This document shows, in pieces, positions 14,065-16,956 of a stretch of DNA of 24,248 nt. Origin of the DNA: a virus. The stretch is from positions 1 through 24,248 of IMG/VR virus record IMGVR_UViG_3300020469_000259. The stretch is one strand, 5' to 3'. Below the pieces are notes generated by a model. The model worked only from the letters and a program-made list of their open reading frames with translations. It was not told the DNA's origin and searched no databases. The position numbers were made by a program, and so were the translations under genes. How positions within the stretch are numbered: the stretch's first letter is position 1; each line of letters begins with the position of its first letter.

Positions 14065-15336
14065 TTACACTAAAATATTATACTGAGTTTTTGAATATAA
14101 TGTAAAATTATTATCAAAATTTGAGGAGGATATATTTGGTAATGATGTAGCTATTTTTTTCTCTCCAAGTGTCGATGATCCCCCACCACCAGCATTTGTA
14201 GTTGCATCTACAATGTTTGGGGGTGCTTCTTCGAGAGTAGAAACATCTTGTTTTTTAGGAACTGAATTTATAGTAGGTTCAGATTTAGAACTCTTTATGT
14301 TTAAATTACTCGATTTATATTTAATTTTACTAGGATCTACACCAACTTTACTCAGAGCAGCATTGATCTCCTCTTTAGTATCATATTTTGATGGGTTTTT
14401 CTCAATCTGAGACTTAACCATATCATACATGAGAGGTGGAACAAGATCCTTATTATTTTCTAATACAACAAATGGATCAACTTTATCATTTTTTGTAGTA
14501 TTCTTATTTCCTACATTTGTGTTGCCACCCCCATCTCCTTTAGGTTTCTCATATCCTATCGTTCTACCTCTACTGTTTTTGATAGGTTTACCTCTTATTT
14601 TCTCCAATTCTAATTTTTTTTCTTTGTTTTTATTAAATAATTTTTTTAAACCAAGAAAAGCTCCTACACCACCAGCTATAGCCAGTGCGATCAATCCAGC
14701 AGGACTAACTAAAAATGCTAATATTGCACCACCAATAGCAATAATACCAGAAACCACTCCTGTTATAATGGCTGGTAATGCCAATAAACCACCATTTAAA
14801 GCGAGAAATATACCACCAACCACTGCGACTGACTTAATTATTGTATTTCTCATCTTCTTAAACGTCTCATCGTCACCAGACATTTTTGCCTGAATCATTT
14901 TAATTGCCTTATTTGCCACAAATCCCGCAAAAAGTGCCATGAAAGCTTTGCCTAAGTTACTCAAGACACCCTTTACAGTTTTACCCACTGCCTCCACTGG
15001 TGCAAGTAGAGTTTTTTTTACTGATTTACCTACACGTTCTAGAAGTCCTTCTTTTTTATCAGATTTATCACTCTCATCTCCTAATTGTTGTTCTCTATCT
15101 TCCTCTCTCTGTGAATCCTGTGCGTTTTCTGTTTGTGTTGCTATTAGTTGAGTAATTTTATTTGTGTTTAGTATTACAACTTTTTTTAATAAATTTATTT
15201 CTCTTGAATTTCTTTTTACTTGTCTAGCAGTGCGATCTGAATTTTTATCAAATAATTTTGACGCATTCAATCTCCTCCTTCTAAGAATAGGACTAGAACT
15301 AATACCTAAATTTTGAGAAGTTGAAGAATTATCCAT
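14065..15336 (-). CDS. Coiled-coil plus hydrophobic tail protein, tape measure candidate (first of two)
   Basis: A 423-aa protein with ATG 15336-15334, overlapping the gp51 3' end by 8 nt. Residues ~20-90 are a basic to acidic coiled-coil region (RRRRLNASKLF, SREINLLKKVVILNTNK, ending in a run of E, D and Q). Residues ~98-150 form an amphipathic helix (GLLERVGKSVKKTLLAPVEA onward). Residues ~168-230 are a strongly hydrophobic, Gly/Ala-rich stretch long enough for two or three membrane spans, and the rest is polar and low complexity. A long hydrophobic block inside a helical tail protein is characteristic of tape measures, which enter the host membrane during DNA delivery. Being first after the chaperone-like gp26/gp51 pair strengthens that reading. 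A structural protein unrelated to gp29 remains possible. Confidence 0.75.
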   Translation of the reverse strand: MDNSSTSQNLGISSSPILRRRRLNASKLFDKNSDRTARQVKRNSREINLLKKVVILNTNKITQLIATQTENAQDSQREEDREQQLGDESDKSDKKEGLLERVGKSVKKTLLAPVEAVGKTVKGVLSNLGKAFMALFAGFVANKAIKMIQAKMSGDDETFKKMRNTIIKSVAVVGGIFLALNGGLLALPAIITGVVSGIIAIGGAILAFLVSPAGLIALAIAGGVGAFLGLKKLFNKNKEKKLELEKIRGKPIKNSRGRTIGYEKPKGDGGGNTNVGNKNTTKNDKVDPFVVLENNKDLVPPLMYDMVKSQIEKNPSKYDTKEEINAALSKVGVDPSKIKYKSSNLNIKSSKSEPTINSVPKKQDVSTLEEAPPNIVDATTNAGGGGSSTLGEKKIATSLPNISSSNFDNNFTLYSKTQYNILV

Positions 15337-15508
15337 TACTTTGTTGTTTGTTTTTTAAATTTTCTTCTTCAATATATTGTTCTAAAAGAGCAATGTATAC
15401 ATCTTTTTCCCACGGAATCATATTTTCAATTTCAGTTAATGAATATTTATGATGTTGCATTAAGGCAAAATTGACCTTATAGTATGACTCCAGACTTGTG
15501 TGAGCCAT
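15329..15508 (-). CDS. 51: gp51-like baseplate hub assembly protein; likely -1 frameshift partner of gp26
   Basis: A 59-aa frame from ATG 15508-15506 to TAA 15331-15329, starting MAHTSLESYYKVNFALMQHH. The core FALMQHHKYSLTEIENM then PWEKDVYIALLEQYIEEE is the His/aromatic, S-L-x-E-I, W-E, E-rich pattern of gp51-like proteins of T4-like marine phages. It also resembles the C-terminal domains of tail assembly chaperones such as P2 gpE'. T4 gp51 is needed for hub assembly and is much longer. The frame lies -1 relative to gp26 and stays open upstream across the gp26 stop, so gp51 may be made mainly as a gp26 fusion (see the frameshift signal). Independent initiation is possible from a weak GAG 5 nt before the ATG, but that ATG lies in the predicted hairpin. 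Confidence 0.8.
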   Translation of the reverse strand: MAHTSLESYYKVNFALMQHHKYSLTEIENMIPWEKDVYIALLEQYIEEENLKNKQQSNG

Positions 15509-15523
15509 ACCTACTCGAAAAAA
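15482..15523 (-). promoter_or_regulatory. Putative -1 programmed ribosomal frameshift signal joining gp26 to gp51
   Basis: Read on the minus strand, gp26 ends TCT TTT TTC GAG TAG. The heptamer T TTT TTC (15523-15517) is a canonical X XXY YYZ slip site in the gp26 phase. After a 5-6 nt spacer, GTATGGCTC (15510-15502) can pair with GAGTCATAC (15490-15482). This gives nine pairs including one G-U, plus an outer G-U, around an 11-nt loop. Slippage by -1 would read CGA GTA GGT and then the gp51 ATG, giving a fusion of 238 + 3 + 59 = 300 residues. Heptamer, spacer and stem are seen directly; their use is inferred from the lambda G/GT and P2 E/E' systems. Confidence 0.7.
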
Positions 15524-16230
15524 GACGATAACCCTTCTAAAACAACATCACTTTTAACTTTTGTTTCTGGATTTGTCACTTTAATAGTATGTGACAATTT
15601 AGGCATTGTATCAAAGAAATTTTCAATCTCTTTAAATTGTTTTGAATTTAATTGATCTAAAAATTCGGTCATCTCTTTCTTTGTGCAATCAGCAGATGTC
15701 CAAGACTCTTCTTCATTATATATCTGATCAATACATGAAATAATTAAATCAAATGACTCTTCGACTCCAATGTTACCACTCAAATCAAAATTACTTTTTA
15801 TAAATTCTGATAATGATGGATACTTCATTCTCATTACTAAATTTTCATCCAATTTAATATCTTTATTATGATCAGGATGTTTTTCAATTTTTATCTCATC
15901 AAGTGGAATTGTAACAGGAACTTGAGTTTTTTCATCATCAGGACATGTAACAATAACTTCTACATTTTCACCAACCGATTTACCTCTTATATTTAAAAAG
16001 AGATACTCAATATCAAAAGTGGATAGTTTATCGACTTTGATACCTCTTGTTAGTATACAGTTATTGATTACGGATTTAATAGCATTAGTTATCTGTTTCT
16101 GATCTTCAGACTCCATGGCTATGATCAAAATTTTCTCTTCTTTAACTAAAAATGGTCGATATTTTATTTTTCGATCAGAAGAAGGAAGAACCAACTCATA
16201 TGTTGGTGTTGCAATTTTTGGTAATGGCAT
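15511..16230 (-). CDS. 26: gp26-like baseplate hub subunit / tail assembly chaperone
   Basis: A 239-aa protein from ATG 16230-16228 (MPLPKIATPTYELVLPSS) to TAG 15513-15511. It matches the T4 gp26 family (208 aa in T4) in its opening PTYELVLPSSDRKIKYRPFLVKEEKILI. The following FDIEYLFLNIRGKSVGE and a helical acidic second half with a conserved SWTSADCTKKEMTEFLDQL also fit. In T4 gp26 is assigned to the baseplate hub. The gene order gp26, gp51, tape measure candidate also fits a tail assembly chaperone. The 3' end carries a slippery heptamer that would extend the protein into gp51. No good Shine-Dalgarno precedes the ATG; a TATAAATA late-type box lies about 26 nt upstream, so the mRNA leader would be short. 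Confidence 0.85.
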   Translation of the reverse strand: MPLPKIATPTYELVLPSSDRKIKYRPFLVKEEKILIIAMESEDQKQITNAIKSVINNCILTRGIKVDKLSTFDIEYLFLNIRGKSVGENVEVIVTCPDDEKTQVPVTIPLDEIKIEKHPDHNKDIKLDENLVMRMKYPSLSEFIKSNFDLSGNIGVEESFDLIISCIDQIYNEEESWTSADCTKKEMTEFLDQLNSKQFKEIENFFDTMPKLSHTIKVTNPETKVKSDVVLEGLSSFFE

Positions 16231-16287: not shown

Positions 16288-16956
16288 TTATCTGAGAGCT
16301 AACCCTTGTCTGAGATTTTCACTTCTTCCTCTATTAAATGATAAACTTGTTTCCTCACCTGCAATATATCTCTCATAACTAAACGTCACATTTGTTCTCA
16401 GAACATCAGAACCACCATACTGAACAGGAGTCGATGAGAAATTAATTGGGAATAGTCCAAAAAAAGTATACTCGATTTCTGAACGATAGTCAATATTGAA
16501 CTTTACAATTTTTGTTTTATCGCATTTGTACCCTGAGTTACCACGAGGATATCTCATGCGATAGAAGTAACCTAAATCCCTTTTATCAACACCTGCACTA
16601 TCAGATCCACTTGCAACATAATCTATCCAATGCTCAAAAAATTTAATCATTTTATAGTCCTTGTCAACATAAAATTCTAATGATAACTCCGTAAATATTC
16701 TTGTATGTGCAAACTTTTCCTGAACACCTGTAAAATTACCAAATATATCACTTGTTCCCAAAGTACTACCTGGTATTGATGCTCGATTACAAAGTAGTCC
16801 AACATTTTCTGTTATGAATCTCTTATTAACTCCTTTATCTCCAAGAAATCTAAAAAGAGATGGTGATAACCCATCAAAAAACACCTGATAATGAGATGTT
16901 TGTGCTACATTAGTCAGTATTGGTTTTATATCAGCTATTTTCTTAGGACGAACCAT
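16288..16956 (-). CDS. 54: gp54-like baseplate tail tube initiator
   Basis: A 222-aa protein from ATG 16956-16954. The sequence has the tail-tube fold signature of T4-like gp19/gp54/gp48 proteins: SHYQVFFDGLSPSLFRFL, LLCNRASIPGSTLGT, FTELSLEFYVDKDYKMIKFFEHWIDYV, then KIVKFNIDYRSEIEYTFFGLFPINFSS near the end. T4 gp54 (320 aa) sits on the hub with gp48 and starts tube polymerisation. This copy is shorter but of the size I expect in marine T4-like phages. It is transcribed divergently from gp4 and lies directly upstream of the gp26 late promoter. A tube protein (gp19) is the alternative, but gp54 fits the baseplate neighbourhood better. Confidence 0.7.
   Translation of the reverse strand: MVRPKKIADIKPILTNVAQTSHYQVFFDGLSPSLFRFLGDKGVNKRFITENVGLLCNRASIPGSTLGTSDIFGNFTGVQEKFAHTRIFTELSLEFYVDKDYKMIKFFEHWIDYVASGSDSAGVDKRDLGYFYRMRYPRGNSGYKCDKTKIVKFNIDYRSEIEYTFFGLFPINFSSTPVQYGGSDVLRTNVTFSYERYIAGEETSLSFNRGRSENLRQGLALR

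Follow-up and report, generated by a model that had tools for sequence, protein, structure and literature searches.

The question raised by this locus is whether gp51, a short reading frame that follows gp26 on the same strand, is made as a small protein of its own or as the end of a longer protein that begins with gp26. In the window, i.e., the whole stretch of 24,248 nt analysed here, which comes from an uncultured marine T4-like phage and whose closest isolate is Synechococcus phage S-SKS1 (75% identity), gp26 is encoded on the minus strand at 15511..16230 (239 aa; PF12322 T4_baseplate, E 2e-75; phrog_150, E 1e-82) and is a candidate TAC-N, the short form of a tail assembly chaperone. Its TAG stop was read from the sequence at 15511..15513 (-). 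The gp51 segment (15329..15508, minus strand) lies in the -1 frame and counts 59 aa from its ATG, or 62 aa from the shift site at 15517. The 59 aa match phrog_634, baseplate hub assembly catalyst (E 6e-28), and also positions 239-278 of phrog_150, directly behind positions 5-233 matched by gp26, indicating that the phrog_150 profile already includes single-chain proteins with both parts. No NCBIfam model was found for either the gp26 or the gp51 part.

The final gp26 codons, TCT TTT TTC GAG TAG on the minus strand, contain a slippery heptamer, T_TTT_TTC, in the gp26 phase (15517..15523, minus strand). The -1 frame, reading TTT TTT CGA GTA GGT ATG GCT, opens 34 nt upstream of the gp26 stop and continues through gp51, stop-free up to the TAA at 15331-15329; the gp51 ATG (15508-15506) lies in this frame, 2 nt past the gp26 stop and three codons past the slip. 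A frameshift at the heptamer is therefore predicted to give a gp26-gp51 product of 238 + 62 = 300 aa (15329..16230, minus strand), a TAC-NC candidate and putative equivalent of full-length T4 gp51. An earlier note on this DNA had read the codons, the heptamer and its phase in the same way, and had placed gp51 exactly in a -1 frame that is open across the junction; all of its coordinates and counts hold to the base.

A lone heptamer in phase is ordinary, because 69 occur in the 6,649 codons of this AT-rich window, and its significance comes from conservation. The junction was readable in 258 loci, obtained from three scans of a viral contig collection and from 18 annotated phages (a scan with phi-ST2 gp26 as query found only 2 viral contigs). 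The earlier note had proposed aligning the junction over T4-like relatives, and had regarded other relative phases of the two genes, or random loss of the heptamer, as speaking against a frameshift; T_TTT_TT(C/A/T) is found near the gp26 end, in the gp26 phase and with gp51 in the -1 frame, in 256 of the 258 loci. Elsewhere in gp26 the same heptamers occupy 25 of 54,944 in-phase codon positions. Isolates carrying the signal include Kyanoviridae, Prochlorococcus and freshwater Synechococcus phages, Pseudomonas phage pf16, Stenotrophomonas phage YB07, a Desulfovibrio phage, Vibrio Schizotequatrovirus, Aeromonas phage CC2 and Rhizobium phage LG08. In the body of gp26, Phe-Phe is spelled TTT TTC more rarely than in any other way (10 of 259), yet this spelling dominates at the junction; the amino acid in front of it there can be Ser, Asp, Asn, Ala, Thr or Arg, with a codon that always ends in T. 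The gp26 stop is displaced 7 codons downstream in 29 loci, with the heptamer retained 31 nt ahead of the later stop; its apparent absence from these loci was an artefact of viewing the last 24 nt only. Since the stop moves and the preceding residue varies while the heptamer is kept, it is the heptamer that is conserved, not the end of the protein.

The -1 frame is open at the junction in all loci except one (L074:2501-3391). This locus lies on a viral contig of 236 kb and has lost 2 nt at the slip site, so that gp26 and gp51 are joined in frame into a single protein of 297 aa. No second gp26 copy was found on this contig, and either regulation has truly been lost here or the assembly is at fault. 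Such a fusion, together with the homopolymeric nature of the site, is what might be expected if gp26-gp51 were one continuous gene, split elsewhere by errors of sequencing or assembly. This explanation can practically be dismissed, as the same -1 split recurs in 256 independent contigs and is refuted as an error by the sequenced isolates of many genera that carry it.

The heptamer is followed by a hairpin (15481..15511, minus strand), identified by folding and covariation, which holds the gp51 ATG. Its arms (15510-15502 and 15490-15482) form 9 bp, including one internal G-U, around an 11-nt loop, with an outer G-U pair between 15511 and 15481, and it is separated from the heptamer by 6 nt (5 counting the outer pair); spacer, stem, loop and buried ATG had all been described correctly beforehand. 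Folded alone, the hairpin reaches -14.2 kcal/mol (z -3.5), a value equalled by 1 of 200 shuffles, and the MFE structure has two additional pairs within the loop. Mean folding z over 191 junctions was -2.5, versus -0.6 to 0 at five control positions.

Covariation was assessed in 71 distinct close relatives, where 92% of the cells of the 10-bp hairpin are paired. Cells with a double change numbered 38, against 16.1 in shuffles (0 of 500) and 1-6 in slid controls; variation on both sides is seen at only one pair, so that the covariation, though strong, rests on one position, the remaining pairs being invariant or changed on one side only. At the varying pair, the third position of an Ala codon (GCT, GCG, GCA), where changes are silent, faces a base that changes the amino acid (GAG Glu, GCG Ala, GTG Val), and the matching GCT/GAG, GCG/GCG and GCA/GTG holds in 61 of 64 GCN cases. 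By parsimony, the gp26 DNA tree requires 14 changes at one of the two sites and 13 at the other, but 16 when they are scored as a pair, indicating that most changes are joint; on starred branches the independent pairs agree in direction in 5-6 of 6-7 cases and never take the opposite one. In addition, each of the 67 sequences that have Ser in the 3' arm spells it TCA, a codon accounting for 27% of Ser elsewhere. Judged from these sequences, the hairpin is maintained by compensatory change. A different, putative stem (GCCTC/GAGGC) brackets the gp26 stop in the L124-L181 clade (e.g., L126:2700-2760), where the stop lies 7 codons later and no gp51 start codon is present.

On the upstream side, a Shine-Dalgarno-like stretch, AGAAGGGT, lies 7-8 nt ahead of the heptamer (15531..15538, minus strand), with a pairing energy to the anti-SD of -3.6 to -3.9 kcal/mol. 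It is a possible upstream stimulator, weak in the phage of the window. Across relatives the energy is -6.2 kcal/mol, versus -4.7 kcal/mol in synonymous shuffles, with no excess in controls, and Glu within the stretch is spelled GAG in 64% of cases against a background of 30%.

These flanking features bear on a further explanation, namely that the two forms arise from slippage of the RNA polymerase on the T run and not of the ribosome. The site is indeed a homopolymer, but in most loci the run has only six T, which is shorter than usual for efficient transcriptional slippage, and what surrounds it is typical of a ribosomal shift: the reading phase of gp26, a covarying hairpin at a constant distance and the Shine-Dalgarno-like excess. 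Polymerase slippage is thus regarded as most unlikely.

The start codons of gp51 were considered next to the possibility that gp51 is made as a small protein of its own, through termination-reinitiation at the ATG 2 nt past the gp26 stop. Such an ATG is present in the window and in many relatives (within the first four codons in 78 of 191 distinct junctions), and gp51 is annotated as its own gene in the records. However, 67 of the 191 distinct junctions show no ATG, GTG or TTG in the -1 frame over the 14 codons that follow the heptamer, and where a nearby start codon is missing the conserved start of gp51 could hardly be made except within the fusion. The sole gp51 start of P-TIM40 is a TTG at codon 5, while P-HM2 has only an internal ATG, and its gp51, annotated from that internal Met, loses the start of the conserved segment. 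Moreover, 29 loci have their gp26 stop downstream of any gp51 start, the gp51 ATG falls within the conserved hairpin, and reinitiation would give no reason for the preservation of the heptamer. We therefore consider reinitiation a very unlikely source of gp51 as compared with a ribosomal frameshift. Under the frameshift reading, some free gp51 could still be produced by reinitiation in the phage of the window, which retains the in-frame ATG; with this codon hidden by the hairpin, it would probably be little or none.

The shift also appears to have caused misannotation, with internal gp51 starts in P-HM2 and C48C1 and with gp51 absent from the annotation of Aeromonas phage CC2 (L084:2289-2381, L089:2283-2387, L092:2206-2372). 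In Vibrio phage D492 (L094:2160-2260) a gp51-like sequence is present in the -1 frame without the T6 heptamer and with a stop/ATG overlap, TAATG, suggesting that reinitiation may have replaced the shift there.

As for the identity of the products, both parts match the T4 gp26/gp51 family (PF12322, phrog_150, phrog_634) in the order of full-length T4 gp51, and a search with the virtual fusion of the window matches, in one piece, complete gp51 proteins of Acinetobacter and coliphage T-evens. T4 gp51 (249 aa) contains PF12322 complete over residues 1-201 and matches phrog_150 over residues 3-248, while T4 gp26, which belongs to the same family, consists of the PF12322 portion alone. Since the domain layout of T4 gp51 is that of the fusion, the frameshift product would correspond to T4 gp51 and unshifted gp26 to T4 gp26. 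T4 gp51 is needed for assembly and is absent from the particle (PMC3004832). This correspondence would also explain a previous record, in which gp51 of cyanophages was noted to reach about 20% of the usual gp51 length, with the first ~200 aa missing (PMC3037559).

The arrangement of the genes, in contrast, differs. Genes 26 and 51 of T4 are transcribed in divergent directions, gene 51 coding for the complete protein. The same separate, full-length gp51, divergent from gene 26, is found in Shewanella phage Thanatos-1 and in Aeromonas phage avDM7, and none of the three phages needs the shift. This T4-type arrangement is absent from the window and its relatives, whose genes are on the same strand, overlapping and in the -1 phase. 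The signal consequently does not extend to T4, which the earlier note had proposed to include in the alignment, and our interpretation is supported, at the level of sequence, for the phage of the window and its wide kin but not for T4. In a tree of the N-domain, frameshift gp26, T4 gp26 and T4 gp51 form three separate groups, requiring two changes; the tree is unrooted and does not give the direction of change, a duplication in the T-even lineage being our inference.

A structure was modelled on the naturally fused relative mentioned above (297 aa; alignment of 86 rows). The model (pLDDT 87) predicts an N-domain with confidence (1-230), followed by a flexible link (238-261) and by helices at the C-terminus. 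Foldseek returned no significant match of this model in the PDB, 0.47 for 3FGX and 0.25-0.28 for the HK97 chaperone 2OB9 being among the highest probabilities, with E above 1; searching PDB sequences with the family profile found no relative either. 3FGX and 2OB9 have been named together as tail assembly chaperone structures (PMC9603447), and these matches, weak if taken alone, may point toward a tail assembly chaperone fold.

The neighbouring genes belong to the same context. On the upstream side, the ORF at 16288-16956 encodes a member of a tail tube family (PF23849, E 3.5e-17). The next gene, which overlaps the gp51 end by 8 nt (14065..15336, minus strand), is, by its position and a central long hydrophobic stretch, a candidate tape measure or internal virion protein; it gave no family match, and its counterparts showed weak tape-measure matches, the best being phrog_58 (E 2e-10) in Vibrio phage D481. 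In S-PM2 the protein following gp51 (L083:2386-3888) carries an ADP-ribosyltransferase-like domain (PF01129, E 4e-6; PF03496, E 2e-5), and its counterparts in other phages resemble peptidases or endolysins, which suggests that the tape-measure position carries varied enzyme domains.

Taken together, it is very probable that gp26 and gp51 meet in a cassette for programmed -1 ribosomal frameshifting, which yields short and long tail assembly chaperones, as lambda G/GT does. The earlier note had arrived at the same reading and analogy, which are supported by the conservation in 256 of 258 loci, the loss of gp51 start codons, the compensatory changes in the hairpin and the domain layout. Signal, phase, conservation, compensatory change and layout are seen in the sequence; from them we infer the slippage itself, its rate and the chaperone role. 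Most ribosomes would halt at the TAG, releasing gp26, whereas a minority would slip back by one base at T_TTT_TTC, aided by the hairpin 5-6 nt downstream and perhaps also by the Shine-Dalgarno-like stretch, and would pass the TAG to yield the 300-aa form. By analogy with lambda gpG/gpGT, the two forms would handle the tape measure and recruit the tail tube during tail assembly, the short form coating the tape measure and the long form recruiting the tube (PMC5009743).

Lambda G/GT and P2 E/E' resemble this locus in having two overlapping frames in the tail operon, a slippery site for a -1 shift shortly before the first frame ends, and a short and a long product with the same N-terminal domain (PMC5009743). 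Unlike gp26/gp51, to which no sequence similarity was found, they have an N-domain of about 140 aa instead of about 240, and the conserved downstream hairpin burying the second start codon is a feature of the present locus. The lambda slippery site is G_GGA_AAG, whereas the heptamer here is U_UUU_UUC. A comparable signal is that of the chaperone of Vandenendeviridae/Andersonviridae, where a -1 shift occurs at a poly-T (GTTTTT) ending TAC-N and the second frame is never interrupted (PMC12846349), although protein and phage family are different and the site here is TTTTTT(C/A/T).

The frameshift had seemed undescribed to the earlier note, but the core finding is probably already in print. Vladimirov et al. 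2022 (Virology), as represented in the papers that cite it, identified chaperone genes of T4-like phages; according to PMC10885494 some of these phages have a short gene and a longer fused gene, and PMC12846349 credits the same work with poly-T frameshift signals in their TAC-N genes. In the open literature, where Vladimirov et al. 2022 is represented by the citing papers, no description of gp26/gp51 frameshifting was found for cyanophages, nor was the hairpin, the loss of gp51 start codons or the Shine-Dalgarno-like excess. The latter three may thus be undescribed even if the shift is known.

We give about even chances to a wider proposal, in which a Shine-Dalgarno-like stretch, a U_UUU_UU heptamer and a hairpin burying the start codon would be the usual route to the long chaperone in T4-like phages other than T-evens, with free gp51 largely suppressed, and the separate gp51 of T4 would have arisen later by duplication and in-frame fusion. 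Frameshifting of the G/T type has been reviewed as widespread in long-tailed phages except T4 (PMC5009743). Contrary to that exception, a large share of the T4-like phages, abundant marine cyanophages among them, would use such a shift, and the short cyanophage gp51 records (PMC3037559) would be the tail end of a fusion protein, whose annotation needs correcting in hundreds of genomes. With the shift so widely used among T4-like phages, the separate genes of T4 look like a special case.
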